A stretch of DNA of 36,853 bases from Saprospiraceae bacterium (GTDB lineage Bacteria > Bacteroidota > Bacteroidia > Chitinophagales > Saprospiraceae): the NCBI GenBank assembly GCA_020629965.1, contig JAHDCG010000056.1, positions 1 to 36,853 on the forward strand. The letters run 5' to 3'. Below, in pieces: positions 4,265 to 34,964 of the stretch; the first letter of the stretch is position 1; every line of letters begins with the position of its first letter. The notes under the pieces were generated by a model. That model ran no database searches. It saw only the letters and a list, made by a program, of their open reading frames with translations, and was not told the DNA's origin. The position numbers and the translations under genes are program-made.

Positions 4265-4269
4265 TGATT

Positions 4270-8215: not shown

Positions 8216-8224
8216 TCTTGTTGA

Positions 8225-8300: not shown

Positions 8301-8306
8301 TTAAAA

Positions 8307-8438
8307 TCAGATAAAAACCACTTTTAAAAAGCAGCCGAACAGCATCAGAAAAACTAACATCAATGCGACAAACTCCTGCATCAATTTAATTTTGGTCATT
8401 CCGAACTCGTCGTGTTCTTTGTTTTCGAAAAAAATCAT
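8307..8438 (-). CDS. Small single-pass membrane protein, unrecognised
   Basis: A 43-residue open frame on the minus strand from ATG 8438 to TGA 8307. The N-terminal part is charged (MIFFENKEHDEFGMTKIK). Residues of about 20-43 form one hydrophobic stretch (FVALMLVFLMLFGCFLKVVFI) that fits a single membrane helix. It lies in the polysaccharide locus between the 2OG-Fe oxygenase and the ligase/polymerase gene, same strand. The charged-then-hydrophobic layout in an otherwise gene-free 380-bp gap makes it a plausible real gene, but I recognise no family. It could be a small helper of the neighbouring membrane enzyme. Coding is not proven, since such short frames also arise by chance. Confidence 0.45.
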   Translation of the reverse strand: MIFFENKEHDEFGMTKIKLMQEFVALMLVFLMLFGCFLKVVFI

Positions 8439-8443
8439 AAAAG

Positions 8444-8479
8444 ATGGTTAATGGTTGGTGGTTGATAGTTGACGGACGG
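8444..8479. repeat. Word repeat array, family H (GTTGATGGTTGGTG)
   Basis: Words GGTTAAT, GGTTGGT, GGTTGAT, AGTTGAC directly upstream of the 43-residue ORF. The reverse-complement family is at 35446-35478, directly upstream of pepT. Confidence 0.6.
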
Positions 8480-8595
8480 CTTTCGGTTTTTGCTTTACTT
8501 TTTGGATTTGTTAAATTTCCCGTTTTTATGCAAAGTCAAAATAGAAAAATCCGCTTAAATCCGCTGTATCCGCATTGTCCGCTTATCTGTCAACC

Positions 8596-9444
8596 TCAAA
8601 CTTTCTCCCCGTTCTTACTCCCCTTCAAACTCTTAATCAAAATCGGCGGCACCAAATCCTTCACGAAATTTTTGATTTTTTCCTTCTTATTAAACGCCAC
8701 CATTTCCTTATCCGTCGCATCGCCCTGACGTACTTTGAAGAGCGTATTATGGTCTTCCAAGCCCGCGTTGATTTCCTCCGCCGGGCGACCGTTGGTGTAG
8801 TAATACAACGCCATGCTGCGGCGACTGCGGTCTTCCGGACACATAATCGGATTCGGCAGACCGTGGTAACTGAAGTCCGTCGTGCTGAACAATGCCATCG
8901 TGTTAAAATGCGGCGGCACCTTCTTCACGCACTTCGTCATGTCTTTATCCCACAACTCAAAATGACCGCCCCACTCCTCTTGCCAGTCCTTGTTCAGATA
9001 AACCAAAACGTTCAAACGGCGGTCGAGGCGGGTCTTGGCGTGTTTATTAAAATCCGCGTGAATTTTCAAAAATCCGCCGCGCTTACTTTCGTGAAAACCG
9101 CCGCCCTCGAAGTAAGCATCAGGAGTCAGCGTTTCTTCAATGCTCGTCAATTCCTGCAAAAATTCCAAAAACGGTTCGCTGTTCAGGAAGTGCGCAAAGG
9201 CTTTTGCCTTCGGGCCGAAGCGACGCTCCCCGCGCGAGGCGAGTTTTTTCTCATTCGGCGAGTTGAACTTTATGTCGCCCTTTTTCTCCAAATCCGGAAA
9301 TTCCTTCAGCACCTCGGTCAGCATGTCCGGGTTGAAAAAATCCTCGAAATAAATATTCGGAAACGGGTCGCCCGCTTTGTATTGCGTCTTATAGTCAGCC
9401 GCAACCTGCTGTAAATCTTGGTATTGAGTATTCAAAAAATTCAT
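8596..9444 (-). CDS. 2OG-Fe(II) oxygenase family protein
   Basis: Encodes 282 residues with the jelly-roll iron site of the 2-oxoglutarate/Fe(II) dioxygenase superfamily. H129-A-D131 (FLKIHADF) and the distal H194 (DFSYHGLP) are the likely iron ligands. R208 or R209 (DRSRRSMALYYY) is the likely 2-oxoglutarate-binding arginine. The strand LNVLVYLNKDW followed by GGHFELW is characteristic of the prolyl-hydroxylase-like branch. Such enzymes hydroxylate proteins, lipids or small molecules. In this position, between a glycosyltransferase and the O-antigen ligase/polymerase, a role in decorating a polysaccharide or its precursor is an inference from context. The final codons extend to 8596; no terminator is seen before the next ORF. 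Confidence 0.85.
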   Translation of the reverse strand: MNFLNTQYQDLQQVAADYKTQYKAGDPFPNIYFEDFFNPDMLTEVLKEFPDLEKKGDIKFNSPNEKKLASRGERRFGPKAKAFAHFLNSEPFLEFLQELTSIEETLTPDAYFEGGGFHESKRGGFLKIHADFNKHAKTRLDRRLNVLVYLNKDWQEEWGGHFELWDKDMTKCVKKVPPHFNTMALFSTTDFSYHGLPNPIMCPEDRSRRSMALYYYTNGRPAEEINAGLEDHNTLFKVRQGDATDKEMVAFNKKEKIKNFVKDLVPPILIKSLKGSKNGEKV

Positions 9445-9570
9445 AAGAAAGTATTTTTATTTCTTTTCTACTGTAAGACGAGCAGTTTCACAACCACTCA
9501 CGATGCAAAAAATTGAACTTTTACTGACTCCTGTTATCGAATTAAAAGGACGTAAAAGTAAAATTAAACC

Positions 9571-9622
9571 CCTCTCTCAAACCCGGAGAAAGTTCCCCCG
9601 ATTCGGGGGTTAGGGGGCTGAA
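9571..9622. repeat. C/G-rich hairpin repeat, family K
   Basis: Contains CCCCCG-ATT-CGGGGG (9595-9609) followed by TTAGGGGGCTGAAGAC. The reverse complement recurs in parts at 19990-20036 and in the fold-back at 20172-20390. It begins about 10 bp beyond the glycosyltransferase stop and may act as a transcript end or processing signal. Confidence 0.6.
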
Positions 9623-9631
9623 GACGATTAG

Positions 9632-10861
9632 CTACACTTCCACTTCTTCCACGTGCTTCCCGACTATCTCCCAAAACTCCCGCACCCGCGCCTCCCAAGT
9701 ATTCGTGTCTGCCGTAGCCGAGCGTGCCGCGATGCGTTGTTCGCTGTTTTCGTCGATAGCTTTGTCAATCAATTCGATGAATTCCGCTTCATCTTCCGCG
9801 ATATAAATATCATCGGCAAAACCGCGAATATCGACCGAAAAATTAGTAGAAATCACCGCTTTGCCGGCGGATAAATACTCGTTAATTTTCAGCGGATAAA
9901 CGCTCGATGTCAGCGTATTACACAAAAACGGAATAATCGTGCAGTCGAAGTGCTGCAAATAATTCGGTAATTCCGTAATGTGTTTGCCGCCGGTAAAAAT
10001 GATATTTTCGACCTTATCCAAGCCGTGTTCTTTGTAATCTTCGCTGTTGAGCGGCCCGACCATGACCAAAGTTTTGTCCGGATGCCCCTCGGCGACGGCT
10101 TTTATCAACGGGTAATTCAGACGGTATTCATTAATATTTCCCGTGAAACCGATGATTTTCGTTTTGATGTCCTTTATTTCTTCGGGGCGCGGTAATTCTT
10201 TTTCCAAAGCCACCTCAAAAATCTTCTTATCCACCGCGTTGTGCAGCTTGTATAAATTAGCTTGCAAATGCTTTTTCAATTCCCACAGTCGGTGCGAAGT
10301 CACCACGGCAACATCCGCGCCGGCGATTGCTTTTTCTTCCAATCGCGCCCCGTGTTTCGCCGTGTATTCTTCCTCGCGCATATCGTCGATGCACTGATAA
10401 ATGTTGAGCGTCGGCTGAAATTCGGGACGCGGCAAATACGGCGCGTAATACGGATTGAAGCAGTTGAAATAAATGTAATCCTTCAAGTCGTAGTCTTCCA
10501 CTACCTGCTTTATCACATTGAGTATCAGGCGATTATTGCGCTCGAACAGCGAGTCGTAAATTTTACCTTCCGGCAAAAAATTAATCGGCAAAGTATTGGG
10601 AGGGTGTACGGCAATGACGTTTTCCGATAACTCGGGAATGGTCTCGTAGCGCATTTTTCCGCGCCACATATCACCGCTGCGTTTGGCTACTTTCGGGTCG
10701 GCGCGCTGCGTCAAAAAATCCTTCCAGGTGTAAGGATGATTGATGTAAAAAACGCGGTTATTTTTCACAAATTCCCGCGTAAAGGACAGCGAGACCGAAC
10801 TGTACGCATTGTCCCAAGGGAAGAGCGTGAAGTAGATTATATCTTTGTTTTTGTAGTCCAT
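9632..10861 (-). CDS. Glycosyltransferase, GT-B fold (family 4-like)
   Basis: A 409-residue cytoplasmic glycosyltransferase. The N-terminal half carries YFTLFPWDNAYSSVS and the acceptor-domain segment NIYQCIDDMREEEY. The C-terminal nucleotide-sugar half begins near residue 235 with IIGFTGNINEYRLNYPL, followed by KTLVMVGP, ELPNYLQHFDCTIIPF, and the donor-binding PLKINEYLSAGKAVISTNF, whose KxxE corresponds to the usual E-x7-E region. It resembles TuaH-like and related family 4 enzymes. It presumably adds a sugar to a lipid-linked repeat unit in the surface-polysaccharide pathway of this cluster; donor and acceptor cannot be inferred. It lies between the flippase and the oxygenase on the same strand. 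Confidence 0.85.
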   Translation of the reverse strand: MDYKNKDIIYFTLFPWDNAYSSVSLSFTREFVKNNRVFYINHPYTWKDFLTQRADPKVAKRSGDMWRGKMRYETIPELSENVIAVHPPNTLPINFLPEGKIYDSLFERNNRLILNVIKQVVEDYDLKDYIYFNCFNPYYAPYLPRPEFQPTLNIYQCIDDMREEEYTAKHGARLEEKAIAGADVAVVTSHRLWELKKHLQANLYKLHNAVDKKIFEVALEKELPRPEEIKDIKTKIIGFTGNINEYRLNYPLIKAVAEGHPDKTLVMVGPLNSEDYKEHGLDKVENIIFTGGKHITELPNYLQHFDCTIIPFLCNTLTSSVYPLKINEYLSAGKAVISTNFSVDIRGFADDIYIAEDEAEFIELIDKAIDENSEQRIAARSATADTNTWEARVREFWEIVGKHVEEVEV

Positions 10862-10937
10862 GTTCCGTAAAATCCGAGAGCCGATGCGACTCTTGTGAAC
10901 AGCTTGTGCTGCGTGAAATTTCGGGGGATTATTTTTG

Positions 10938-10999
10938 TTGTTTAGGCGTTTAGTTGTTTAACCGTTTAGGTTGTTCCGGGCGCCTTTAAACGACTAAAC
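10938..10999. repeat. Word repeat array, family B, forming a stem-loop
   Basis: GTTTAGTTGTTTAA (10948-10961) pairs with TTAAACGACTAAAC (10986-10999) over 14 bp with one G-T, around a 24-nt loop. The right arm contains the TAG stop and last codons of the flippase gene. It lies between two genes read in the same direction, so it may trim or attenuate the transcript. Confidence 0.7.
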
Positions 11000-12343
11000 T
11001 TTTAAACGATTTCGATTATCGAATTTCTCCCGCACCATCCCCCACATTTGCCCGTAAAAACTAAAGCTGTAGCCAAATACCCGCCATGCCTTAATGTCAA
11101 ACATTTTATACAACATCATTTGCATTGCCACGAAAGCAAGCGCGTAAGTCAAAAGTGTACCGTACACCGCACCGAAAACGCCGAAACTCGTGATAAAAAC
11201 GTAATTCAAAATCACATTCAACACCGCGCCGCCGCAGGTAAACCAAAAATTAATTTGCGGCTTACCGATGCTGTCTAAAACGGTGCCGAACTGTACTGCA
11301 TACGGAATGAAAAGCCCGTAGAGTATGGTCAAACGCAGCAAATTCGCCGAGTCCGCGTAGCCATCGCCCGCGACAAAAAGGATGATGTACTCCGCAAAAA
11401 GCAGCACGAAAATAATGCCCGGTATCATCAGCGAAAAAATTGCGCCGACCGCTTTTTCGTAAAGGTCTTTGATGGCTTCCTTGCCTTCTTTCAGACGTTT
11501 TGCCGACTGCGGAAAAAGTATTGCCGCCATGCTGTTCGTCGGAATATCCGCCATGTTCGTGACTTTGATTGCCGCTTCATAGCTCGCCGTCGCCACCGGC
11601 CCGATGATGCCGCGTATCATAAATTTGTCAATGCTTTTGTAGAGCATTGTACTCAAATTTGTCCCCAAGGTAAACTTGCCGTAATCGAATAATTCTTTCA
11701 CCCATTTCCAATCAATCTCTCGCTGAAACCTCAAATACGGCCGCGCAAAAAACCACGCAATCGCCGAGGCCGCCACCGCCGTTAATATCTGAAATTGCAC
11801 CAGTTCCGCCAAGGTTATTTCCGTCGCAAACAAAAACATAAACAGGATGTAAAAAAACAGCAAGCCCTGCCGCGTAAAGTCACTCCAAAAGATGCCCTCG
11901 AAGTCCAAATTCGCCTGTGCCATATAATTAAACTGCATAAAAGGCACCAGCAAAACCGTCGTGATGCAGTAAGTCCGCAGCATCATCGGCATTACCTCGC
12001 TGTTCAGAGCCGCACCCACATAAGGCGCAGCCGACCACAGTATCACTACAATCGCAAGCGTCACCAAAAAATTCAAAATCAAAGATGCCGTTGCAATTTT
12101 CTTATACTCCTGCTCCTCTTCACAATCCGTCAAATATTTTATCAGCGCATTTTGCTGCAAACCCATCCTACCGACCTCCAAAATACTCACAGCCGCCAAA
12201 AAAGTAAACCAATCACCCACATCCGCCTTCGTCAAAGCCCGAAACAAAATAAACCCCATCCCCAGACCGAATAACTGTACCCCGAACCGTTGCATCAGCG
12301 TAAAAAATCCGGAAGTAAACCAATATTTGCGGTCGTCAGTCAC
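10994..12343 (-). CDS. Polysaccharide flippase (Wzx-like, MOP superfamily)
   Basis: A polytopic membrane protein of 449 residues, the usual size for oligosaccharide flippases, with about 12-14 hydrophobic segments spread along its length. Typical stretches are GFFTLMQRFGVQLFGLGMGFILFRALTK at the N-terminus (first helix pair), LSTMLYKSIDKFMIRGIIGPVATASYEAAIKV in the middle and TLLTYALAFVAMQMMLYKMF at the end. It probably moves undecaprenyl-pyrophosphate-linked repeat units across the inner membrane. It is second in the polysaccharide set, after the Wzz/Wzc-like gene and before the glycosyltransferase. Its last codons are part of a family B word repeat. Confidence 0.86.
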   Translation of the reverse strand: MTDDRKYWFTSGFFTLMQRFGVQLFGLGMGFILFRALTKADVGDWFTFLAAVSILEVGRMGLQQNALIKYLTDCEEEQEYKKIATASLILNFLVTLAIVVILWSAAPYVGAALNSEVMPMMLRTYCITTVLLVPFMQFNYMAQANLDFEGIFWSDFTRQGLLFFYILFMFLFATEITLAELVQFQILTAVAASAIAWFFARPYLRFQREIDWKWVKELFDYGKFTLGTNLSTMLYKSIDKFMIRGIIGPVATASYEAAIKVTNMADIPTNSMAAILFPQSAKRLKEGKEAIKDLYEKAVGAIFSLMIPGIIFVLLFAEYIILFVAGDGYADSANLLRLTILYGLFIPYAVQFGTVLDSIGKPQINFWFTCGGAVLNVILNYVFITSFGVFGAVYGTLLTYALAFVAMQMMLYKMFDIKAWRVFGYSFSFYGQMWGMVREKFDNRNRLKV

Positions 12344-12349
12344 TGTGGG

Positions 12350-12384
12350 TGTTTATTTGTTTATTCGGTTATTTGTTTATTCGT
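12350..12384. repeat. Word repeat array, family I (TTTATTTG/TTTATTCG)
   Basis: Words GTTTATTT, GTTTATTC, GGTTATTT, GTTTATTC starting 6 bp upstream of the flippase start codon. Only one copy of this family is seen in the window. Confidence 0.55.
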
Positions 12385-12512
12385 TGCCGTTGTTAATGAC
12401 TGCCCGCTGTAAAATCACATCCTGTTTCTACTCACCTAAAAATGCCAACGGCATGGTATCTCCCAACCCGGCTTGCCTCTCATGGTATGCTAATGCCGGG
12501 AAAGGTACGGGC

Positions 12513-12546
12513 ATCCACCACCCACCAACTACCACCCGGCACCTAA
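12513..12546. repeat. Word repeat array, family D (CCACCTA/CCACCAC)
   Basis: Words CCACCAC, CCACCAA, CTACCAC, CACCTAA. The TAG stop of the Wzz/Wzc-like gene (12543-12545, minus strand) lies inside the last word. Other copies are at 15740-15763, 27271-27312 and 27488-27505. Confidence 0.6.
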
Positions 12547-14753
12547 CGTATTTCCTTCAAACTCACCTTGTTCAAAATCGACCCCAGCAACTTACTCCCC
12601 AAATTCCGCAAAAACGCATAACTGTCTTGGTCTTCATTCGTCAATTTATTCTCCGCGTCGGCTACCAAAATGACCTTATCGACAAATTGTGACAACTCCC
12701 GCGCATCGCTGTATTCATTCAACGCAGCGGCTTCCAGCAAAATGTAATCGTATTCCAATTCATAATTTCGTAAAATGCTGCGCAGATTTTTACCCGCCAG
12801 TACCTCACTCGCCGAGCGTGCATCGCCGACGTTGCCCATGATGTCCACGCCGTTCATACGGAAGTTTTGCGTCCCCAAATTACTGCCTGTATTTCCGACA
12901 TTTTGACCGCTCGTCAGCAAAGGATTTTCGTCGTTCGGAACGTTAGAAAAAGCACTTAAACTGTTGTTTTTAAAGTTCGTGTCGATGATGAGCACGCGGC
13001 GATTATTCAAACTCAACGCGTATGCCAAAGTCAGCACGATAAACGATTTGCCCTCTCCTTTTTTGTTACTCGTTATCAAAAAAGAACGCGCATCGCTCGC
13101 CTCCATCGTGTAGCGCAGCTTCCTGACCGCCTCTTTAAAATAGTCGTAATTTTTATCCGCTGCATTGCTGCCGAATATCGCGGCGAGATCGAGTTGCTTA
13201 TCTTTCAACTTATTAATCATGCCTAAAAACGGCAGACTGCTCATCTTTTTAAATTGCTCCGGATTACTGAAACTGCGGTCGAAAAAGGTCAACAAAAACA
13301 GCAAAACCGTCGTCAGCGTCGTACCCGCCACACCCGCAAATGCGCCCAAAATCGCGCGGTGACGCGGCTCGGCTTCGTCCGGAATTTCCGCCGGCTCAAA
13401 GATGCGCATCTGACTGCCGTGAACGGTAGCGGAGATTTCCGCCTTATCAAATTTATATTTCGCGTCCTGATATTCGATTTGCGCCAAATCCCACTCCGAT
13501 TTTAAGTTTTTGTAACCTGCATCGTCCGTCACCATTTGTGCTTGATCGCCCGTCAGGCGGCGAATTTCGGACTCATATCCCCGCAAAGCGTTTTGTGCGG
13601 ATTGCAACTCGATTTCCGCATCCACTTTCTTTTCCAAAAGGTCTTCCAAACGGCTGTCTTCCAGGCGTTCGTTGCGTACTTCGTAAAGAGCCATTTGTCG
13701 ACCGATATCGTCGCGGCGTGCGGCAAGGTTTTCCAGCTTTTCTTCCAGAGCTTTATCTTTTCTGCCGCCGGCGAGATATTTATTACGGTTCAGCTTAATT
13801 TCCTGCTGTATTTTCTCCAAATCCTCGTTCAGATATTGCTTTTTGGCAAATCCGTCGTTCATCTCCGGCGCGATTTTTCCGATTTCACGCGTCGTCGTCG
13901 CCAATGCCTTTTTTTGCTTCAAAATATTCTGCCGCTCCTGCTCAATCGACACGTTCAACTCCGAAATGCGCTCGATTAAAGTACTCGATTGTTTTTCGAC
14001 ATCCACGATATTGTTTGCCGAGCGATAGGCATCGAGTTCATCCGTTAAGCGGCGAAAAGCGGCGCGTTTGCTGTTCAGTTCTTCCCGAAATTTGCGCACA
14101 TCGCTGTCTTCCGTCGCTAAAATATCCGCTTCGTAAAAATTGAGAAATTCCTCACAAAATTTTTGCACGGCGAAGTAAGAAAGTCCCGGATGCTCGGAGG
14201 TAAATTCAATCGCAATGAAATCCGACTCCCCTTTCCGCGCCACTTCCAAATCTTCGTAAAGCGTCTCCGGGTCGTATTCGAATGCTTTGGCTAATTCATT
14301 AAAAGTCAAGCGGTTATGCTTCTCCAAACGCGGCGCGGCGAGGGTATCTTTGGTAGAAGAAAGCACCGCCACAAAGTCTTCCAACTCACTGCGGCTGTAA
14401 GTAATATCTTCATCGACCTCGGGTACGCGGAAGGGTTCGACCTCTACGCCGTCGGCACTCAAATCGTGGTACAGCAGCTCTTCACTCAACAATTTCAGCA
14501 CGGGGCGACTCTTCATTTGCTCCATCACTTCGCTAAACATCGACTCTGCCTGATAGGCTTGAATAAAGGGATTGTCCCCCAAGACGTTGAGCCTTGCATT
14601 GTTCAAAAAGTTAGTCTCGATGACGGCGCGCGACTTGAATTTATAGGGGGTCAGTCCTACCAAAAAGAAGGTAGCAACGGCAGCGACGAGTCCGACGACC
14701 AGCAACAGCCATTTGCGCTTCCATAGCACGTGCATGAAGTACTGTAAATCCAT
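12543..14753 (-). CDS. Polysaccharide co-polymerase / tyrosine-autokinase-like (Wzz-Wzc type)
   Basis: Encodes 736 residues. A Wzz domain begins with a membrane helix at about 14-33 (KWLLLVVGLVAAVATFFLVG). A long periplasmic coiled coil follows (about 205-430), then a second membrane helix (about 467-490) and a cytoplasmic P-loop domain. Walker A is SNKKGEGKS (562-570) and Walker A' is VLIIDTN (587-593). The Walker B position reads YILLEAAAL (670-678), with Glu in place of the usual Asp and without the usual PP. The C-terminus ends LNKVSLKEIR with no tyrosine cluster. Wzc proteins set polysaccharide chain length and export through an oligomer driven by autophosphorylation. Here the chain-length part looks intact, while kinase activity is doubtful. 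It is the first gene of the cluster, 240 bp downstream of a well-formed promoter. Confidence 0.85.
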   Translation of the reverse strand: MDLQYFMHVLWKRKWLLLVVGLVAAVATFFLVGLTPYKFKSRAVIETNFLNNARLNVLGDNPFIQAYQAESMFSEVMEQMKSRPVLKLLSEELLYHDLSADGVEVEPFRVPEVDEDITYSRSELEDFVAVLSSTKDTLAAPRLEKHNRLTFNELAKAFEYDPETLYEDLEVARKGESDFIAIEFTSEHPGLSYFAVQKFCEEFLNFYEADILATEDSDVRKFREELNSKRAAFRRLTDELDAYRSANNIVDVEKQSSTLIERISELNVSIEQERQNILKQKKALATTTREIGKIAPEMNDGFAKKQYLNEDLEKIQQEIKLNRNKYLAGGRKDKALEEKLENLAARRDDIGRQMALYEVRNERLEDSRLEDLLEKKVDAEIELQSAQNALRGYESEIRRLTGDQAQMVTDDAGYKNLKSEWDLAQIEYQDAKYKFDKAEISATVHGSQMRIFEPAEIPDEAEPRHRAILGAFAGVAGTTLTTVLLFLLTFFDRSFSNPEQFKKMSSLPFLGMINKLKDKQLDLAAIFGSNAADKNYDYFKEAVRKLRYTMEASDARSFLITSNKKGEGKSFIVLTLAYALSLNNRRVLIIDTNFKNNSLSAFSNVPNDENPLLTSGQNVGNTGSNLGTQNFRMNGVDIMGNVGDARSASEVLAGKNLRSILRNYELEYDYILLEAAALNEYSDARELSQFVDKVILVADAENKLTNEDQDSYAFLRNLGSKLLGSILNKVSLKEIR

Positions 14754-22509: not shown

Positions 22510-24429
22510 TTAGTCTTTCTTGACTTCTTCAAATTCTACGTCGGTCACATCTTCGATGTCATCGACGTTCGTCGTGCCTTGATCAGCACCTGCACCCGGG
22601 TCGCCGCCTGCATTAGCCGCGTCGCCCTGTGAGGCTTGGTACATGTCTTGGCTTGCCGCTTGCCATGCTTCGTTAAGCTTAGCCATGGCAGCGTCGATAC
22701 CGTCGAGGTCTTGGTTTTTGTGTGCTTCTTTCAGCTCACTTACCGCACCTTCGATAACCGATTTTTTCTCGCCGGGAATCTTGTCACCGTACTCTTTCAA
22801 CTGCTTCTCCGTTTGGAAAACCAACTGATCGGCTTGGTTCAGTTTCTCGACGCGCTCTTTCGCTTTGCGGTCTTCGTCGGCGTTCATTTCCGCCTCTTGC
22901 TTCATTTTTTCAATCTCCTCTTTGCTCAAACCGGTCGAAGCCTCGATGCGGATAGATTGCTCTTTGCCCGTACCTTTATCTTTCGCGCTGACATTCAAAA
23001 TACCGTCGGCATCCATGTCGAAAGACACTTCAATTTGCGGTACACCGCGCGGCGCGGGCGGAATGTCACTCAATACGAAACGACCCACAGGGCGGTTATC
23101 TCGTGCCATCGGACGCTCACCCTGCAAAATGTGGATTTCCACACTCGGCTGGTTGTCGCTCGCGGTCGAATATACCTTCGATTTTTTCGTCGGAATGGTG
23201 CTGTTGGCTTCGATGACTACATCGAAAACTCCGCCCATCGTCTCGATACCGAGAGACAGCGGCGTAACGTCCAAAAGCAAGACATCCTGAACGTCTCCGC
23301 TCAATACACCGCCCTGAATAGCTGCACCTACGGCTACTACTTCATCGGGATTTACGCTGCGGTTCGGCTTTTTACCGAAGAATTTTTCGACTGCTTCCTG
23401 AATAGCGGGAATACGCGTCGAACCACCGACCAAAATCACCTCGTCGATGTCGCTCGGCTTCATACCGGCGTCATTGAGGGCAGATTGGCAGGGCTTCAAA
23501 GTGCGCTGTACCAAGTCGTCCGCTAATTGCTCGAATTTAGAGCGGCTGATTTTCACCACCAAGTGCTTCGGCACACCGTCCACTGCGGTAATATAGGGCA
23601 GATTCACTTCCGTCTCCTGACCGGCAGACAATTCGATTTTCGCTTTTTCCGCTGCATCTTTCAGACGCTGCAAAGCCATCGGGTCTTTGCGCAAGTCGAT
23701 ATTTTCTTGTGATTTGAAAGTATCCGCGAGGAAATCCATGAGGACACGGTCAAAATCATCACCACCGAGGTGCGTGTCACCGTTGGTAGATTTTACTTCA
23801 AAGACACCTTCGCCCAATTCCAAAATAGAAATATCGAAAGTACCGCCGCCGAGGTCATAAACCGCGATGGTCATGTCTTTACCGCCTTTGTCGAGACCGT
23901 AAGCGAGTGCTGCCGCCGTCGGCTCGTTGATGATACGACGAATGTTCAAACCCGCGATTTCGCCGGCTTCTTTGGTAGCCTGACGCTGTGAGTCATTGAA
24001 GTAAGCAGGCACGGTAACAACTGCTTCTTTGACCTCGCTGCCGAGGTAATCTTCCGCCGTTTTTTTCATTTTCTGCAAAATCATGGCAGAAATTTCCTGC
24101 GGCGTGTACAAGCGACCGTCGATGTCCACTTTAATGGTGTCATTGTCGCTTTTTAATGCTTCGTAAGCCGCACGCTGTGCTTCCGCGCTGACCTCCGAGT
24201 AGCGAGAACCCATAAACCGCTTGATAGAAGAAACGGTACGGGTCGGGTTGGTAATTGCTTGTCGTTTGGCGGGGGCACCGATTTTGCGCTCGCCGTTGTC
24301 CATGAAGGCAACTACGGACGGCGTCGTGCGTGCGCCTTCGTCGTTTGCGATGACTTTAGGCTCGTTACCTTCCATTACGGCTACGCAAGAGTTGGTAGTA
24401 CCTAAGTCAATTCCGATAATTTTACTCAT
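22510..24429 (-). CDS. dnaK: Chaperone DnaK (Hsp70)
   Basis: 639 residues from ATG 24429 ([14 protein letters not shown]). The open frame reaches 24477, but the 16 extra lysine-rich residues are not part of DnaK. ATPase domain: [13 protein letters not shown] at 5, [17 protein letters not shown] near 140, [13 protein letters not shown] near 172, [12 protein letters not shown] near 195 and [13 protein letters not shown] near 335. The substrate domain includes [14 protein letters not shown] (about 393) and the [14 protein letters not shown] loop. The lid is helical and charged, and the tail ends [13 protein letters not shown]. It is an ATP-dependent folding chaperone working with DnaJ and GrpE, neither of which is in the window. 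It is monocistronic, with its own terminator and a 597-bp divergent upstream region. No CIRCE element was found. Confidence 0.98.
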
Positions 24430-24502
24430 ATATAATTGATTTTTGTTTTTAGCTTTTAATTTCATTTGCCTCTTCAAAAAAAAGGCTCGACATTTTTAAA
24501 AA

Positions 24503-24693: not shown

Positions 24694-25026
24694 TTTTTTC
24701 CAATCACCTGCAATACGAAAAGTCGGTCTCTTGAAAACAATCCGACCGGTTCCTCCTTTTCGTAAATTTTTACGGAAATTTCCTCCGACTCTTAAAATGT
24801 TTACGCCTTTAGGGACGCGAAAAAAATAGATTCAGAATTTTGGCTTGTTCTTTTTCCCGATTTCTGTCGCGTTCCTTATTTTGCCTCTCGCAAAGGCATA
24901 GCTTGCCCTTAAAAAAAAATTCCGAGATTTCGTGCTTAGTACATACGAAACCGGGTTAATTATTTGCAAATATTATCGCTTGCATTACTTCAGTATTTCT
25001 TTTTTCAAACTACCAAACACTCAAAC

Positions 25027-25896
25027 ATGAACAAGATTATTTTTTTACTCAGCTTTTCCCTTTTCGGCACTGCCGCTTTTGCCCAATTTACGGAGTTCGG
25101 TATCGCCGGCGGCATTTCTAATTATCAAGGCGACCTCTCCCCCGCCGTAGATTTCAAAAATATCAATATCGGACAAACCAAAGGGGCTTTCGGTATTTTG
25201 CTGCGCCACAATTTTAACCCCGTATTCGGACTGCGCGGCGCACTTACCTACGGACAAGTCGCCGGCGACGACCGCCTGACGGACAACCCGTTTAAACAAA
25301 GCAGACAACTCCGCTTCACCTCGGACATTATCGAAGTATCGACCGTGGCAGAAATCAATTTGTTCGGCTACGACCCTATGTATTCAAATAAAAAATTTAC
25401 GCCTTATCTTTTCATCGGGGCGGCGGGTTACTACTTCAATCCGAAAACCGATTTTAACGGACGCGACATCGAATTGCAACCTCTGGGTACGGAAGGACAG
25501 GGTAATCCGGGTTTCGACGCGCCCTATTCTCGCGTTGCTTTTGCGGTGCCGGGCGGCGGCGGCATCAAATTTAACCTCGGAGATATCTGGACGGTAGGCA
25601 TCGAAGTCGGCGCACGTAAGTTATTCCACGATTACCTCGACGATGTAAGCGGCACTTATGCGGGCTACGAAATCCTGGCAGCCGGTCCCGGCGGAGAAAC
25701 GGCCGCCCTGGTCGCCAACCGCACGCACGAAGGCACGGACATTAACCCCGCAGCGATACCGGGCGGTCAAACGCGCGGCAACGCAAATTTTAACGATTGG
25801 TATTATTTCAGCATGGCAACGCTGACGTATCACATCTCTAACGGCAACGGGCGCCGAGGCAGCAACCGGGGCGGAATGGGATGCCCGAAGTGGTAG
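25027..25896 (+). CDS. PorG-like (DUF6089-type) outer membrane beta-barrel protein, copy 1
   Basis: 289 residues from ATG 25027 with signal peptide MNKIIFLLSFSLFGTAAFA. The frame is open back to 24964, but the added 21 residues precede the signal peptide and are unlikely to be used. The mature protein starts QFTEFGIAGGISNYQGDLSP, then shows alternating aromatic beta strands (FGLRGALTYGQVAGDDRL, TPYLFIGAAGYYFNPK, WTVGIEVGARKLFHDYLDD, FSMATLTYHISNG) as expected for an outer-membrane barrel. This pattern matches the DUF6089 family, which includes PorG, a type IX secretion component. Whether this copy is PorG itself or a relative with another role cannot be decided. A close paralogue follows at 26391. 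Confidence 0.78.
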   Translation: MNKIIFLLSFSLFGTAAFAQFTEFGIAGGISNYQGDLSPAVDFKNINIGQTKGAFGILLRHNFNPVFGLRGALTYGQVAGDDRLTDNPFKQSRQLRFTSDIIEVSTVAEINLFGYDPMYSNKKFTPYLFIGAAGYYFNPKTDFNGRDIELQPLGTEGQGNPGFDAPYSRVAFAVPGGGGIKFNLGDIWTVGIEVGARKLFHDYLDDVSGTYAGYEILAAGPGGETAALVANRTHEGTDINPAAIPGGQTRGNANFNDWYYFSMATLTYHISNGNGRRGSNRGGMGCPKW

Positions 25897-25905
25897 CTTT
25901 TTTTG

Positions 25906-25974
25906 TTGTTTAAGGGTTTAGGCGTTTAAGCGTTTAGAGGGGCACCGCCCCTAAACGTCTAAACGTGGATAAAC
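25906..25974 (+). terminator. Family B word repeat forming a terminator-like hairpin
   Basis: CGTTTAGAGGGGC (25931-25943) pairs with GCCCCTAAACG (25947-25957) around ACC, with a 2-nt bulge. The flanking GGCGTTTAAG and TCTAAACG words extend the stem. It lies 35 bp after the stop of copy 1. No clear T-tract follows, so termination is inferred from position only. Confidence 0.5.
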
Positions 25975-26235
25975 ACGCTTAAAAATTTTCCTAAACACCA
26001 AAGCGACTGTGAACAAACCGGCAAATTACCACCTTTTACCGGTCAGTAAAAAATCGGCGGGCAGATAACGTTTTTATTTTTTCCCTGAAGACTCTAATAA
26101 TCGTATCATTGCGCCGTTTTTACATTATTGAACCGATAAAGTCGCGTTAAATCGCATATCTTTTTTTCGATAGGCTCCTGATTTTCGGTTCACTGTTTAA
26201 ATGTAGGATTGCATAATTATTTACACGCTAAAAAG

Positions 26236-26354
26236 TAAATAAGATGCTGACTATCAGTTTTTTAGGTCGTAACGGCTAAACTCGTAAAAAAATAAATAAA
26301 ATACTGATTATCAGTTTTTTTTAGATTTAAACGACTAAACGATTAAACTCGTAA
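26236..26354. repeat. Imperfect direct duplication with CTGAyTATCAG dyads
   Basis: Two units of about 57 bp each contain AAATAA(G/A)AT(G/A)CTGA(C/T)TATCAG followed by a T-run, and each ends in CTAAACTCGTAAA or ATTAAACTCGTAAA. CTGACTATCAG is at 26247-26257 and CTGATTATCAG at 26304-26314. The second unit contains a family B word repeat (26328-26355). It lies 40-150 bp upstream of PorG-like copy 2. Confidence 0.65.
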
Positions 26355-26390
26355 ACCTACTCATCACCTTCGTTTTGAAAATACCCGACA

Positions 26391-27275
26391 ATGATTAAGA
26401 AATTTTTTCTGCTGCTTTTCACTTTATTCTCTCTGCAAACCTTCGCCCAATTTACCGAAGTCGGTATCGCCGCCGGTGTGACTACTTATCAAGGCGATTT
26501 GTCTCCCGTCTTCAGCACCGACAGTCTGAATATCGGGCAGGTAAACGGTGCTTTCGGGGTTTTGGTCAGGCACAATTTTAACCGATTTTTGGCAGTGCGC
26601 GGTGGTTTGACTTACGGTAAAGCCTCGGGCGACGACCGCACCTCTACGCGCACCAATCGCATCGCGCGCAATCTGCGCTTCGAGACCAATATCTACGAAG
26701 CCTCGGCGATTGTGGAGTTTAATATTTTTGGCTACGACCCCGTTTATACCGGCAAAAACTTTTCGCCCTATTTATTCGTCGGGGCGGCGGGTTATTATTT
26801 TAATCCGAAAGCCGACTTTAACGGGCGCAACGTCGAGTTGCAGCCTTTGGGCACGGAGGGGCAGGGAAATCCCGGTTTCGGGGAGTCTTATTCCCGCTTT
26901 TCTTTAGCGATTCCCTTCGGCGGCGGTCTGAAATTTGCGCTCGGCGACACCTGGACCGTCGGTATCGAAGTGGGTGCGCGAACCTTATTCCACGATTATT
27001 TGGACGATGTCAGCGACCGCTACGCCGGGTATGATGTTATCGTTGCCGGCCCGGGCGGAGAAACGGGTGCGCTTTTAGCCGACCGCTCTTACGAATTGAC
27101 GGACGCTAACCCCGCTGCCATCCCCGGCGGGCGCAGACGCGGCAGTACCAAGTTTGACGATTGGTATCACTTGAGCATGTTGACGCTGACTTATCACATT
27201 CCGACCAATAACCGTCAACGCGGTAAGCGCCGTGCCGGCAGAAAAGGTAATCAGATGGGTTGCCCTACTTGGTAG
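26391..27275 (+). CDS. PorG-like (DUF6089-type) outer membrane beta-barrel protein, copy 2
   Basis: 294 residues with signal peptide MIKKFFLLLFTLFSLQTFA and mature start QFTEVGIAAGVTTYQGDLSP. It is a close relative of the protein at 25027. Long blocks are nearly identical, including SPYLFVGAAGYYFNPKADF, ELQPLGTEGQGNPGF and LFHDYLDDVS, while the N-terminal strands and the basic C-terminus (RQRGKRRAGRKGNQMGCPTW) differ more. Both end in GMGCP or QMGCP followed by a Trp residue, giving a conserved terminal cysteine of unknown meaning. Tandem duplication is the simplest origin. The stop codon TAG is the first part of a family D word repeat. Confidence 0.78.
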   Translation: MIKKFFLLLFTLFSLQTFAQFTEVGIAAGVTTYQGDLSPVFSTDSLNIGQVNGAFGVLVRHNFNRFLAVRGGLTYGKASGDDRTSTRTNRIARNLRFETNIYEASAIVEFNIFGYDPVYTGKNFSPYLFVGAAGYYFNPKADFNGRNVELQPLGTEGQGNPGFGESYSRFSLAIPFGGGLKFALGDTWTVGIEVGARTLFHDYLDDVSDRYAGYDVIVAGPGGETGALLADRSYELTDANPAAIPGGRRRGSTKFDDWYHLSMLTLTYHIPTNNRQRGKRRAGRKGNQMGCPTW

Positions 27276-29129: not shown

Positions 29130-30380
29130 TCAACTACGCTCAATCGGGCAAGTCATACAATGCGACCCGCCCCGCGCCCGCGACAGCTCGTTGCTCGGCA
29201 GCGTGATGATGGTATTTTGCACGTCGTCGGGTTTGACTTTACCGGCTTTGATTTGCTTGAGTAAATCCTCGGCGTGAATGATTTTGTAGCCCGCCTTTTG
29301 GAAGGCAATTTCCGTTTTCGGATTGCGGTCGTAGGTCAGCGCAAGACCCGGACGCAGGGCAACGAGGTTGCAGCCGTCCGTCCATTGTTCGCGCTCCTGA
29401 TACGGCGAAACGCCCTCACCGCTGAGGATAAATTCCATTTTCGGATTGATTTCGTTGCGCATAAAATCAGCGACCGAGTGGTAAAAACCCTTCGTGCCGT
29501 TGCTGCGGTGCACCTCTACCGTCGAAGCCATACCGTCCACCACGATGGGTTTGAAGGCAACGATGTGTTGGTTGTTGACTTGCGTAAAAATGGTGTCGAT
29601 GTGCATACAACTGCGGTCGGCGGGGATGTTGATTTGCACCACATTTTTGACAATGCCTTTTTTGAAAAGCACGTCGCGCAACGAGTGAATGCCGTGCGCC
29701 GTAGTGCGCTCACTGCATCCGACGAGCAGATAATCTTTGTTTAAAATCATCACGTCGCCGCCCTCGATACTGACTTTTTCGCCTTTTTTGGAGGGCGGAA
29801 ATTGGTCGGGATAATTCATGTTAATAATCCGCCCTTCGCTGCGCAATTTAGCAAAAATCGGGTGCGCCCAAAAGATGAAACGGGTCAGATAATTTTCCCG
29901 AAAACGCGCTTCTTTCGCCGCTTTGGTGATAACCACGTGGTCGTTTATCGTCACGGCAATATCGCGGGTAAAAATGAAATTCGGTATCGGCGGAAAAAGA
30001 ATATGCCCATCCCTTTTCAACTCGCCGGTAATCAAAGTATCCGCCAGTTCTTCATTTTCCAAATCCATCAACATCTGCTTAAACGCCTCGGGCATTTCCT
30101 CATAATCCACAATTTTATCAATCATTTCCGTCCGTGCATCCTCGTCGCTGTTTAAGGCTTCGATGAGCAAATCCCGCGTTTCCAATACGTTTTCCGCGCC
30201 CATAAAAAATTCCAATATTTCGCGAAAAATATCGTGCTCTTCCTGCATTCGCGGCAAATGCACGATGTCATCGAAAAGCAACTCTTCCGCCTGCGCCGGC
30301 GATACCCGCGCGATGCCCTCGTCGGGGCGATGAATGATGACGCGCTTGAGTTGTCCGATTTCTGAATTTACGTTGACCAT
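29130..30380 (-). CDS. arcA: Arginine deiminase
   Basis: 416 residues, the standard length. Recognisable family motifs are the N-terminal SEIGQLKRVIIHRPD, PNFIFTRDIAVTIND (about 146-160), EGGDVMILN (near 215), DRSCMHIDTIFTQV (near 258) and the C-terminal RARGGSHCMTCPIERS with nucleophile C408. It hydrolyses L-arginine to L-citrulline and ammonia in the cytosol. In fermenting bacteria it feeds ornithine carbamoyltransferase and carbamate kinase for ATP, but neither of those genes is here. It may instead serve arginine catabolism or acid tolerance. It is alone on its transcript by context, flanked by family F and family C word repeats. Confidence 0.96.
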   Translation of the reverse strand: MVNVNSEIGQLKRVIIHRPDEGIARVSPAQAEELLFDDIVHLPRMQEEHDIFREILEFFMGAENVLETRDLLIEALNSDEDARTEMIDKIVDYEEMPEAFKQMLMDLENEELADTLITGELKRDGHILFPPIPNFIFTRDIAVTINDHVVITKAAKEARFRENYLTRFIFWAHPIFAKLRSEGRIINMNYPDQFPPSKKGEKVSIEGGDVMILNKDYLLVGCSERTTAHGIHSLRDVLFKKGIVKNVVQINIPADRSCMHIDTIFTQVNNQHIVAFKPIVVDGMASTVEVHRSNGTKGFYHSVADFMRNEINPKMEFILSGEGVSPYQEREQWTDGCNLVALRPGLALTYDRNPKTEIAFQKAGYKIIHAEDLLKQIKAGKVKPDDVQNTIITLPSNELSRARGGSHCMTCPIERS

Positions 30381-30650: not shown

Positions 30651-33600
30651 ATGTCTTATTCCGTCGAATTTCCCGTTACCTATGCCCGCCTCACTTTGCT
30701 GAACGGCGACACGGCGCACTTCATCCTCAACGACCCCGGCTCGCTGCGCTACGGTCAGAGCAGCGCGGAATTTTTGTCGGAATATGCGGCTTATTTTCAG
30801 ACAAATTTTCTCGACAAGGGCGATTTTCAAGTCTTGCAGGCAATGAAAAATGCCGAGCCGCTGACGGAAGCCGTGCTGCAAGTCGAATTTCCCGCCGCCA
30901 AAGGCAGCAAAAACCGTCCGGGGGTGCGCTTTCCCGCCTTCACGCTTTCCTTTCGCACTTTTACGCGACCGCACGGCAAAGGTTTTCTGACCTACGTGCC
31001 GCAGTTGGCTTTACAGTCTTTTTCGCTGCACGAAGATAAAATTGCGGAGGAAGTCGAAGCCGCCGTGCGCTTGGAGTTTCTGCGGGCAGAGCGACTGCGA
31101 CACCTGCAATCGGTCGTCGAGGCGGACTGGTACACGGAGGTCGTCGTTCGGATCGAAAACGTGACTTTCACACTGCCTTCTCTTTCCGAAATCGACGCTA
31201 AAGACCAAGAGAAAACGGCGGTGCTGTTACCGAAAATCGCCCGCCGACCGACAATTGAAAATCCGCAATTTTTCGGCAACGAAGAAATTATTAAACGCTG
31301 TGCGCAAGTGCTGACGGGTAAATACGGACGCAATATTCTTATCGTCGGTGCGCGCGGTGTCGGCAAAACCGCGCTGCTGCACGAGATTATTTTTTGTAAA
31401 GAGAAAATCGGCTTTGAAGGTAAAATTTGGGAAACGACCGCTTCCGAAATGATAAAAGAACTCAGCGGCGGCGGTGATTGGCGCGACGGTCTCGAAGACC
31501 TCGCCAAAGAACTCGGTCGCGGGAATGATTTGCTGTACGTGCGCAGTCTGCACGAGCTTTTCGAGGTCGGTCAGTCGGATGCAAAAAGTAAGAGTGTCGG
31601 TGAGTTTATGCGCTCGTATTTGCAGGACGGCAGCATTACGCTGTTGTCGGAATGTACGCCCGCCGAACTGCGCCGCATAGAGCGCAGAGTACCGGGCTTT
31701 TCCGCGCTGTTTCAGGTCTTGCGACTCAACGCACCGGCGGCGGAAGACGTGCCGAAAATTGTGAAACAAAAGATAAATCAGACGGCGGAAAAAGTCGGCG
31801 TGAAAGTAAAAAACGATGCCGTAGAAGAAGCCGTGCGCCTGCACCGTCGCTTTATGCCCTACACTTCTTTTCCGGGAAAACCGATGCGCTTTTTGGAAAA
31901 TCTGCTGCTGAGTTTCGACGGAAAAACTTTGGAAAAACCCGTCGTCGTGCGCGCCTTCAGCGACGAAACGGGCATTCCGATTTTTATGATTGACGACCGA
32001 AAAAAATTGGATTTAGAGGAAATTAACCGCGATTTCGACCGCAGAGTTTTCGGGCAGAAAGCGGCTACGCGGGAAATGACGCGGACGTTGGCGGTCATCA
32101 AAGCGGGTTTGAATCGGCGGGGTCGCCCGATTGCTTCTTTCCTTTTTGTCGGCCCGACGGGCACGGGAAAAACCGAACTGGCAAAGGCTTACGCGGAGTT
32201 TCTCTTCGGCAGCGCGACGCGAATGCTGCGCTTCGACATGAGCGAGTATCAGCACCCGTTTCAGGTCATGCAGCTCATCGGCGGTCGGGGCGGCGGGACG
32301 TTGACGGCGGGCATTCGGCGGCAGCCGTTTACGGTGATTTTGTTCGATGAAATCGAAAAAGCCGACCGCTCTTTTTACGACTTACTGCTGCAGGTGCTCG
32401 GCGAGGGGCGACTGACGGAAAACGGCGGGCAGACGGTCGATTTTTGCTCGGCGGTCATCATTATGACCTCGAATATCGGGGCGCAAAGTTTGGGTAATCG
32501 CGGTATTTCGCTTGTGACGACCGACCGTAATACCGAAATTAAAAATCACTTTCTCCGCGCCGTCGAAAAGAATTTTCGACCCGAATTTTATAACCGCATC
32601 GACAATATCGTACCCTTTAAACCGCTGTCGCAGGAGACAATTCGCTTGATTTTAGACCGCGAATTGCAGCAAATTTTTAAAAGAGAAGGTATCGCACAGC
32701 GCAAAGTCAACGTTAAGGTCAGCGATGCCGCCCGCGCTTGGTTTGCGAATGCGGGCTACGACGAACGCTACGGCGCGCGCCGCCTGCAACGCACCCTGCG
32801 TGAGGAAATGACCGTGCCTTTAGCAAAAAAACTAAACAGCTACGCCGCCGACGAGACGGTGACGGCACTCATTGACCGGCAGGAAAACGAGACAATTATC
32901 ACGACCGACAGCGACCCCATGAGTTTCGATATCGTCATGGAGGAGACGATAAAACAGGGCGAGGCAGCACTCATTGCCGCTACGCGATTGCAACTGCATC
33001 GCTTTCGGGAGAGTTTCGGTTATTTGAAATTTACGGAAGAAATTGCGCAGCGCAAAAGGGCAATCGAGGCGGCGGAAAAGGCGGGCGAGGCGACTTACGT
33101 GCAGTCCGCAAATTTGACGCGCTACACGAATTTGGCAGCTAAATTTGAGCAACTGAAAACGGAAATCGAGGCTTTGGAAAATGAAATCGGGCGGGTGCTT
33201 TTCGGTTTACAGGTCTATCGCACCGACATTGAAAAACGGCGGATGGATTGGATGGAAAGATTTTATACAGCCAAAACGGAATTGTTGCAAATCAATCATC
33301 CGCAGAGCAATAAAGCAACCTTAGCGGTGTACGGAAAGGGAGAGGAATTGACTGCCGCAATAGATTTGTACGAAAAGATTTTTGAGAATTTGGATGCCGC
33401 TTACCGGACGCGGGCGGTGTGGTATAATTCCGATTATTACAACAAAAATGTTGTCGCCGCACCGAAAGATGCAGATTCCAAAACTCAGCCTTATAAATAC
33501 TCTCAATCGACCGATAAATTACCCGAGTCAACCGACGTCGCGCCGGATGATTTTACTTTGTTCGGGGTCGAATTTGCCATAGATGCGCCGTTAATTCATT

Positions 33601-33863
33601 TGCTTTTACAAAATGAGGACGGCATTCATCAATTTAAAACACAGGACCACGAAGCGGCAAAATGCAGAGTTTTGGTAGCGCAAGGACACCGGTATTTTAC
33701 TCCGATCGGCATTCACCGTAAAGACTTTTATCGAGGTACGGTCAGGCGGCAGATGACCGGGAATATTTTGAAAGACAGCATTTACAGATTCGACCGGGAG
33801 ACGAAGCAACCGGTTGAACTTTTGACGAGATATATGCGGGACAATTTGGAAAATTTATTGTGA
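30651..33863 (+). CDS. ClpB/ClpA-like double-AAA protein with C-terminal PCRF-like region
   Basis: 1070 residues. Residues 1-200 are an unrecognised beta-rich domain, not the usual Clp N-domain. D1 has a good Walker A (GARGVGKT, 233-240), but the Walker B position reads LLYVRSLHELF (294-304) without Asp-Glu, and the usual arginine-finger segment is replaced by RRIERRVPGFSALFQ (341-355). D2 looks active: GPTGTGKT 501-508, ILFDEIEK 563-570, MTSN 605-608, RPEFYNR 643-649 and sensor-2 GAR 708-710. After the D2 small domain (about 750) come coiled-coil helices (about 760-880). A region of about 885-1025 (TLAVYGKGEELTAAIDLYEKI and LLLQNEDGIHQFKT) resembles the PCRF core of class I release factors. 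No release-factor GGQ domain follows; the GGQ at 592-594 lies in D2. Function is unknown: perhaps an unfoldase acting at ribosomes or on a nascent chain. The PCRF call is by eye. Confidence 0.75.
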   Translation: MSYSVEFPVTYARLTLLNGDTAHFILNDPGSLRYGQSSAEFLSEYAAYFQTNFLDKGDFQVLQAMKNAEPLTEAVLQVEFPAAKGSKNRPGVRFPAFTLSFRTFTRPHGKGFLTYVPQLALQSFSLHEDKIAEEVEAAVRLEFLRAERLRHLQSVVEADWYTEVVVRIENVTFTLPSLSEIDAKDQEKTAVLLPKIARRPTIENPQFFGNEEIIKRCAQVLTGKYGRNILIVGARGVGKTALLHEIIFCKEKIGFEGKIWETTASEMIKELSGGGDWRDGLEDLAKELGRGNDLLYVRSLHELFEVGQSDAKSKSVGEFMRSYLQDGSITLLSECTPAELRRIERRVPGFSALFQVLRLNAPAAEDVPKIVKQKINQTAEKVGVKVKNDAVEEAVRLHRRFMPYTSFPGKPMRFLENLLLSFDGKTLEKPVVVRAFSDETGIPIFMIDDRKKLDLEEINRDFDRRVFGQKAATREMTRTLAVIKAGLNRRGRPIASFLFVGPTGTGKTELAKAYAEFLFGSATRMLRFDMSEYQHPFQVMQLIGGRGGGTLTAGIRRQPFTVILFDEIEKADRSFYDLLLQVLGEGRLTENGGQTVDFCSAVIIMTSNIGAQSLGNRGISLVTTDRNTEIKNHFLRAVEKNFRPEFYNRIDNIVPFKPLSQETIRLILDRELQQIFKREGIAQRKVNVKVSDAARAWFANAGYDERYGARRLQRTLREEMTVPLAKKLNSYAADETVTALIDRQENETIITTDSDPMSFDIVMEETIKQGEAALIAATRLQLHRFRESFGYLKFTEEIAQRKRAIEAAEKAGEATYVQSANLTRYTNLAAKFEQLKTEIEALENEIGRVLFGLQVYRTDIEKRRMDWMERFYTAKTELLQINHPQSNKATLAVYGKGEELTAAIDLYEKIFENLDAAYRTRAVWYNSDYYNKNVVAAPKDADSKTQPYKYSQSTDKLPESTDVAPDDFTLFGVEFAIDAPLIHLLLQNEDGIHQFKTQDHEAAKCRVLVAQGHRYFTPIGIHRKDFYRGTVRRQMTGNILKDSIYRFDRETKQPVELLTRYMRDNLENLL

Positions 33864-34022: not shown

Positions 34023-34964
34023 TTAGTATTTTACGCTGAAAACGTAGTTATCCAAGTTGTTGTTGTCCGTTGCATTTACTTCCGTTACCTGAATGAGGAA
34101 CAAAGTACCTGCGGTAGATTGAACGACAAACTCATCGCCTACTTCGATAACGTCGGTAGAACCGCTGATTGCGTCACCTGTATCAAAGGCTTCTTCGATT
34201 TCTTCCACGAATTGAACTTCGTTAAAATCGTAATCTTCCGGCAAGTTGTCGCGGTTTACCTCCACCATTACGGCACCGTTTTCGGGAGAAATTGTTCTTC
34301 TCCAGTTAGAAGCAGCCGGCAGATCGGTGTTGATACCGTTATCCTGTAATTCGGAAGCATCGCTGTTAGAAGAAGTTGACATCAAAGCATCCAAGTCAAA
34401 TGCACCTTGATTAGGACCCGATGCGTTAAAGATTACGTTATCGGTAGATACAGGATTGATATCCGTACCCGGCTCAACAGTAGTTACGGTAATAGACTCC
34501 GTATCAGTCAAACCTTCATCATCCGCCAAAATAAAGTCATAAGTGTACGTGCCGCGATCGGCAGGCGTACGCAATACAACCTTTATCTGAAAAGCATCAG
34601 ATTGATCATTGACCAAAAGTGCAGGGTTTTGTGTGATGTCGGCACCGTTAGCAGTAGTGATGGAAATCAATTCCTCGTCGAGAGCAATTTGAACACCATC
34701 ACGCTCGATAGTCAATGTATTTAAAGGAGGAGTCGCATCAATACCTTCCAAAGCAACTTGAAATTGGAAAGCACCCGGACTCTGTACTACAAAATCTTCA
34801 TCAGAAACAACTTGACCTTCGCCGGTCGGGTCGTCTGATAAAAAGTCCAAAGTCGGAGCAAAGTTTTCAATTACCGGCGGCTCAATCGGTCCGTCATCTT
34901 CGCAGGAAGTGGTAAAAAGAGAAAGTGAAATTGCTAAAAATGCAAAAAGCCATAAACGCTTCAT
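34023..34964 (-). CDS. Acidic lipoprotein, unrecognised
   Basis: 313 residues. The N-terminus MKRLWLFAFLAISLSLFTTS-C21-EDD is a lipoprotein signal with a lipobox ending at C21. The acidic residues just after the cysteine are compatible with the surface lipoprotein export signal known in Bacteroidota. The mature chain is strongly acidic and beta-rich. It includes an Ig-like stretch (LRTPADRGTYTYDFILADDEGLTDTESITVTT, about 130-165, given here as a description of position) and a C-terminal domain of about 125 residues ending VFSVKY. No enzymatic motif is seen. A strong terminator and a long leader with two hairpins suggest a well-expressed single gene. Its base use looks more AT-rich than its neighbours. 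Confidence 0.8.
   Translation of the reverse strand: MKRLWLFAFLAISLSLFTTSCEDDGPIEPPVIENFAPTLDFLSDDPTGEGQVVSDEDFVVQSPGAFQFQVALEGIDATPPLNTLTIERDGVQIALDEELISITTANGADITQNPALLVNDQSDAFQIKVVLRTPADRGTYTYDFILADDEGLTDTESITVTTVEPGTDINPVSTDNVIFNASGPNQGAFDLDALMSTSSNSDASELQDNGINTDLPAASNWRRTISPENGAVMVEVNRDNLPEDYDFNEVQFVEEIEEAFDTGDAISGSTDVIEVGDEFVVQSTAGTLFLIQVTEVNATDNNNLDNYVFSVKY

Follow-up and report, generated by a model that had tools for sequence, protein, structure and literature searches.

Gene A of a Saprospiraceae genome encodes a Clp-type AAA+ ATPase with a predicted release-factor-fold tail and two co-inherited paralogues

The nearest parallel known to us for the association of a release-factor-like module with an AAA+ unfoldase would be eukaryotic, namely Vms1/ANKZF1 with Cdc48/p97 in ribosome quality control (PMC6514570). 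In this work, we describe gene A, located at positions 30651-33863 on the + strand of a 36,853-nucleotide contig (JAHDCG010000056.1; this whole stretch is hereafter the window) of Saprospiraceae bacterium assembly GCA_020629965.1, whose open reading frame (ORF) and relatives indicate a Clp-type AAA+ ATPase of 1070 residues with a release-factor-like C-terminal region. As in Vms1/Cdc48, a release factor (RF)-like module and an AAA+ unfoldase appear to be paired, but here within one polypeptide, whereas Vms1 belongs to another RF superfamily, is a polypeptide separate from Cdc48, and is an active hydrolase of eukaryotes. With the class-I release factors RF1/RF2 and with PrfH, the predicted tail of A shares the fold of domains 1, 2 and 4 along with residual sequence similarity; unlike RF1/RF2, it is devoid of the GGQ domain 3 and, by our reading, of the SPF/PxT tripeptide, and it stands behind an AAA+ motor. 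Like ClpA, ClpC and ClpB (Hsp100), A contains two AAA modules (D1 and D2), with an intact D2 and its D2-small lid, and it aligns with ClpA over residues 190-727; unlike them, it displays an unmatched 200-residue N-domain, a degenerate D1, a D2 lacking PPGYVG, the RF-like tail, and NCBIfam scores under the cut-offs. In the literature we found no description of a Clp/Hsp100 motor joined to an RF fold, subscription papers being mostly outside our coverage.

The start codon of gene A is ATG and aligns with the starts of 28 relatives, which were set by script at the first ATG. The encoded protein starts with an N-domain, continues with a degenerate D1 and an intact D2 motor, and ends in an RF-fold tail, all read from the + strand. 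The N-domain (residues 1-200; 30651-31250) displayed no Pfam match; it is followed by the D1 AAA module (residues ~205-435; 31263-31955), with a P-loop present and the Walker B acids and arginine fingers gone, and by the D2 AAA module plus small lid (residues ~445-735; 31983-32855), in which Walker A/B, sensor 1, arginine finger and sensor 2 are present and PPGYVG is gone. The tail would comprise a helical bundle similar to RF domain 1 (residues ~758-882; 32922-33296; from the predicted structure), an α/β part similar to RF domain 2, or PCRF (residues 888-1011; 33312-33683; from the predicted structure and profile comparison), a linker with the consensus IHRK.FY where the GGQ domain 3 would be (residues 1012-1030; 33684-33740), and an end similar to RF domain 4, with strands and a C-terminal helix (residues 1031-1069; 33741-33857; from the predicted structure).

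The modeled tail almost certainly has the class-I RF fold, with domains 1, 2 and 4 and without domain 3. The AlphaFold2 model, obtained with 78 aligned tails (predicted local distance difference test, pLDDT, 90.9; predicted template modeling score, pTM, 0.82), is arranged as helices followed by strand-helix-strand-(helix)-strand-helix-strand-strand and then, past a short linker, by further strands and a final helix. A Foldseek search against the PDB yielded 33 matches at E <= 0.001 (best 2.3e-7, prob 1.00), from which 28 are titled as release factors (RF1, RF2 or mitochondrial) and the remaining five (4v63, 8akn, 4v4s, and 9d7r twice) belong to ribosome complexes, in which we took the matched chain as the RF; PrfH appeared lower (E 0.022). 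In VIA-align, model residues 24-325 were superimposed on residues 4-364 of RF2 (8p16) with a Z of 15.5 over 253 residues, and the α/β part (model ~139-326) gave Z values of 12.0-13.9 with root-mean-square deviations of 3.1-3.8 over 130-142 residues, while the first rows other than RF were designed helix bundles matched through their helices only (Z 10.5). The structural match extends into RF domain 4, and the GGQ domain 3 has no counterpart; accordingly, no GGQ was found in the A tail, where residues 1012-1030 form a short linker in place of domain 3, the letters GGQ inside D2 (ENGGQTVDF) being a coincidence.

At the sequence level, no RF was retrieved when the A tail was searched as a single sequence against Pfam and NCBIfam (one of the Pfam results covering the best 25 of 42 families), and a weak Pfam match to the tail was obtained in 2/30 relatives (best E 0.084). 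In the host genome, a PCRF family search detected two full release factors elsewhere, both above the cut-off, and three weaker spots (E 0.027-0.42); gene A was not among these matches. Profiles were more informative. When an A-tail profile was run against 5503 non-AAA ORFs from the loci examined (44 being RFs by pattern; 171 AAA ORFs and an A fragment of genome G067 were excluded), RFs made up nine of the ten best and 18 of the 25 best matches. Further, in hhalign the six overlapping RF profiles scored 29.7-42.3 against the A tail, all above the 46 unrelated families (<= 27.1); by profile, this tail is nearer to the RF2 type without domain 4, and equally near to the RF1 and RF2 types with domain 4. 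Block-shuffled decoys (blocks of 12 columns; 15/30 RFs excluded by our own pattern) approached the real scores, with 36.7 vs 39.4 for the A tail and 34.1 vs 35.1 for the tail of its paralogue C (see below), perhaps from true local matches surviving inside the 12-column blocks, and the comparison with the 46 natural families was given more weight. The initial annotation had proposed a PCRF-type tail without GGQ, to be examined by profile-profile comparison and structure prediction; both bear it out, as RF profiles outscored all unrelated families and the predicted fold is that of release factors, although the restriction to PCRF was too narrow, RF domains 1 and 4 appearing in the model as well.

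The motor portion is plainly Clp-related. Pfam recognized AAA_2 at residues 492-653 (145.5 bits), ClpB_D2-small at 659-730, and P-loop fragments in D1, and ClpB structures were among the PDB matches of A. The nearest NCBIfam model was ClpA (TIGR02639; residues 190-727, E 1e-94), with 318 bits against a curated cut-off of 993, and A fell under the curated cut-offs of all named Clp equivalogs in NCBIfam, i.e., ClpA, ClpB, ClpV, ClpK and ClpG. Residues G236, G238 and K239 of the D1 P-loop are invariant among 29 A sequences. Motifs were counted in 24 of 30 sampled proteins each for A and its paralogues B and C, aligned with three Clp proteins from the same genome: the D1 Walker B IDE was present in 0/72 of these proteins vs 3/3 Clp proteins, and the D1 arginine-finger segment is replaced in the consensus, while D2 keeps its Walker A (A 24/24, B 24/24, C 23/24), Walker B (23/24, 23/24 and 24/24), arginine finger (22/24, 20/24 and 24/24) and sensor 2 (23/24, 23/24 and 24/24). 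This pattern points to D1 as a structural, perhaps ATP-binding, ring and to D2 as a motor with an unusual pore; its motifs suggest that D1 cannot hydrolyse ATP. The degenerate D1 and active-looking D2 of the initial annotation were thus confirmed, the former by the absence of the IDE in all 24 A proteins and by the replaced finger segment, and the latter by both Pfam matches and by D2 motifs in 22-24 of 24 A. ClpA, ClpX and ClpC dock ClpP through a hydrophobic-Gly-aromatic loop, which in a ClpP partner would be expected as [LIV]-G-[FL] past D2 sensor 1. A loop of this type ([ILVM]G[FWLYI]) was found in 21/27 B, 26/30 C and 36/73 A proteins, in counts without a chance control, and its presence in most B and C proteins makes delivery to ClpP possible.

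Residues 1-200 of A, described initially as a novel N-domain, proved to be so with regard to Pfam: no family matched at E <= 10, and thus no Clp_N double repeat was found. The domain was predicted at a pLDDT of 83.9, with an element order that we read as β-β-β-α-α-β twice. In VIA-align it came closest to the N-domain of HicB, with a Z of 7.5 over 77-82 residues, a value below what the tool counts as safe, and Foldseek gave no match at E <= 0.001; the HicB likeness of the model is a weak lead only. Profile comparison did not show kinship among the three N-domains (A-C 14%, A-B 2%, B-C 0.2%).

A, B and C are unlinked Clp-family (ClpA-like) ATPases with two AAA modules each. On other contigs of the same genome, paralogue B (760 residues; C288:41466-43745) carries no tail, and paralogue C (1085 residues; C192:25167-28421) carries an RF-like tail. 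Among 100 Saprospiraceae genomes, relatives of A were found in 36 (34-43% identity, mostly near full length). C occurs in exactly the same 36, and B in these plus a single further genome, G096 (37 in total). Two peptide patterns specific to A, scanned across 84,980 species, returned 118 stretches, 106 of them confirmed; from 80 of these considered by title, 57 are Saprospiraceae, 22 are Aureispira, Phaeodactylibacter, Lewinella, Flavilitoribacter or wider Bacteroidota groups, and one reads only "bacterium". The A-tail profile matched in 2/149 genomes of the order (the host genome, and a 99-residue fragment in G067), and the C-tail profile in 2/395 genomes of the phylum (the host genome, and one short match at E 0.002 taken as chance). 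Across 23 genomes, the pairwise distances correlated closely within the set (A-B 0.88, A-C 0.87, B-C 0.87), and less so with those of the AAA gene D (A 0.60, B 0.49, C 0.56). With these results, A, B and C likely form one functional set. In G067, a genome without the set, a decayed A retains residues 1-164 and 985-1062 only, ~0.4 kb apart (L344:2691-3782), and the AAA core is absent within the 6 kb examined. As for G096, which harbors neither A nor C, its lone B-like protein (L345:1335-2960) displays 41% identity over residues 203-753 (match residues 201-752), its first 200 residues being unlike B.

The second tail, that of C, very probably carries the class-I RF skeleton as well (domains 1, 2 and 4, without a GGQ domain), to judge from profiles and motifs. 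Five of the six RF profiles scored 29.7-42.7 in hhalign, and the sixth (RF1-type PCRF) scored 23.8, just short of the highest-scoring unrelated family (24.1). For RF domain 4, the pattern [IVL]R.Y...D[LHV]R[TSL][GE], selected after inspecting the C consensus, occurs in 16/30 C tails (15 with DLRTG), in 9/44 RFs, and in no other ORF type among 5674.

From these features, we tentatively propose, as somewhat less than an even chance, a set of Clp-family unfoldases that non-hydrolysing RF-like modules dock on ribosomes, the docking itself being what we infer. The RF-like modules of A and C would keep the motors on the ribosome, in the simplest case at the A site or close to it, and would not terminate translation; D2 would exert its pull on a nascent chain or on another protein, either ribosomal or bound; the ordinary RFs would take care of product release; and chains might be handed to ClpP. 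The fuller version, in which three Clp proteins constitute one ribosome-docked unfolding machine, its RFs stripped of release and stop reading into docking arms, as an independent bacterial counterpart of the Cdc48/Vms1 arm that possibly feeds ClpP, is more doubtful. Should the tail have kept its docking ability, bacteria would possess a machine for ribosome quality control that combines unfoldase and RF in one chain, and the loss of GGQ and of the reading loops would illustrate how a termination factor is reduced to docking alone; should it have lost that ability, this would be a rare case of an RF fold leaving translation. Either outcome is directly testable, and the three-gene set offers a clean genetic handle.

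Several observations weigh against ribosome docking or against the evidence underlying it. Ribosome binding by A or C, and likewise the coupling of ribosome or nascent-chain recognition to unfolding put forward in the initial annotation, are what we infer, and a shared fold shows no function. Regarding the A tail, the elements that we take to read stop codons in RFs, i.e., the PxT or SPF tripeptide loop and the GxGGxE tip, are absent from its consensus, and the loop after E.G.H is shortened (by our reading of the alignment), so this surface may have been reused. The individual RF matches of the A-tail profile are weak (best E 0.0073) and, being mutually related, their number overstates the support; PDB sequence searches with the A and C tail profiles retrieved no RF at E <= 1. 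As to C, its profile ranked RFs poorly, with one among the ten best matches and three among the 50 best, its match to the A tail is weak (hhalign 12%), and its tail was assigned from sequence, structure having been predicted for the A tail only. With respect to the motor, the D2 pore loop PPGYVG is present in 0/24 of each of A, B and C vs 3/3 Clp proteins, through a short deletion, making ordinary threading doubtful, and the window protein has ISL rather than IGF at the ClpP-loop position. Finally, the co-occurrence of the three genes is partly a matter of descent: presence of the set changes 9 times on the gene D tree (a single-gene tree of 91 of the 93 genomes with D, midpoint-rooted) vs at least 22 times in 200 shuffles, which indicates largely vertical inheritance with several joint gains or losses, and the set is found in larger genomes (median 6.35 vs 3.95 Mb for those without it), a large-genome lifestyle thus being a possible confounder.

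The main rival, which we consider possible though clearly short of even, is the reuse of the RF-like skeleton as a scaffold: it would let A and C associate with one another, with B or with an adaptor, or would cap the D2 ring, with no ribosome contact, in a specialized Clp assembly (a hetero-ring or serial rings) serving a Saprospiraceae machine that could include a secretion system. This explanation accommodates the loss of the RF catalytic and reading elements in A, three paralogues locked together with co-varying distances, two with tails and one without, and neighborhoods in which no translation gene stands out. It is countered by the RF marks that both tails keep at low identity (the Y of the domain 2 helix, the E.G turn, and the R...D of domain 4), suggesting that a surface or core has been retained; such marks may serve folding only. 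Concerning secretion, the type VI secretion system sheath family PF05943 (VipB) was found in 0/100 genomes with a positive E. coli control, the search covering this family; the Bacteroidota-type sheath presumably belongs to another Pfam family.

It is unlikely that the set is an ordinary Clp/Hsp100 chaperone subfamily for general stress or disaggregation, its tail a substrate-binding domain of no special meaning. The plainly Clp-derived D1-D2 (ClpA TIGR02639 at E 1e-94, ClpB among the PDB matches) and a dnaK-like HSP70 gene 6 kb from gene A are what such a chaperone might show; yet the NCBIfam Clp scores lie far under their cut-offs (318 vs 993 bits for ClpA), the D2 pore loop is gone, other Clp proteins exist beside A in the genome, and three genes are inherited together.

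PADLOC gave matches to PDC-M37B and to DolB, the latter presumably part of the Dodola defence system; like DolB, A has a ClpB-like D2, but for A the best stretch covers 125-278 of 375 profile positions and no conserved neighbor was seen. The initial annotation had named a conflict system among its options; a defence or conflict system whose RF-like tail senses damaged or stalled ribosomes is very unlikely. Despite these matches and the tie of the RF-like PrfH to ribosome damage (PDB titles; PMC9223846), the strongest PADLOC stretches fall within D2, and a single weak match falls on the P-loop of D1. Moreover, the three genes are not linked, are co-inherited in a single family with their presence following the gene tree, and have no conserved neighbors in the loci examined.

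The recommended survey of homologue neighborhoods disclosed no conserved partner of A in the loci examined, where the immediate neighbors vary and the commonest neighboring gene family is found in 18/80 A loci. A and C lie on one contig, 4.5-17 kb apart, in three genomes (G093, G098 and G099). Gene D (L228:16070-18727), a tandem CbbX-like AAA gene with two AAA and two AAA_lid_6 stretches behind a front of ~280 residues without Pfam match, is the divergent neighbor of C in 10/20 C loci; its candidacy as a specific partner is weakened by its presence in 93/100 genomes. Replacement of trans-translation was rejected, as transfer-messenger RNA scored above the cut-off in 88/100 genomes; counted by best E-value, these are 33/36 with the set (the host genome included) and 55/64 without it. 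Likewise, a GGQ supplied in trans by an extra protein was unsupported, three PF00472 matches being present in 20/36 genomes with the set vs 31/64 without it; G046, without the set, has four.

Within the window, gene A is flanked by two genes on the - strand, one of the arginine deiminase family (29130-30380) and one without Pfam match at E <= 1e-5 (34023-34964), so that it stands alone. A full-length HSP70 (DnaK-like) gene is located at 22510-24477, ~6 kb upstream on the opposite strand. Two adjoining outer-membrane β-barrel genes at 24964-27275, both DUF6089, are probably the product of a duplication. Further away, a gene at 4264-5862 is predicted to encode AAA-ATPase_like and PDDEXK_9 nuclease domains (PF09820, PF08011), and near it, at 6716-14753, there are polysaccharide-type genes (Wzz, Wzy_C, flippase-type and glycosyltransferase).

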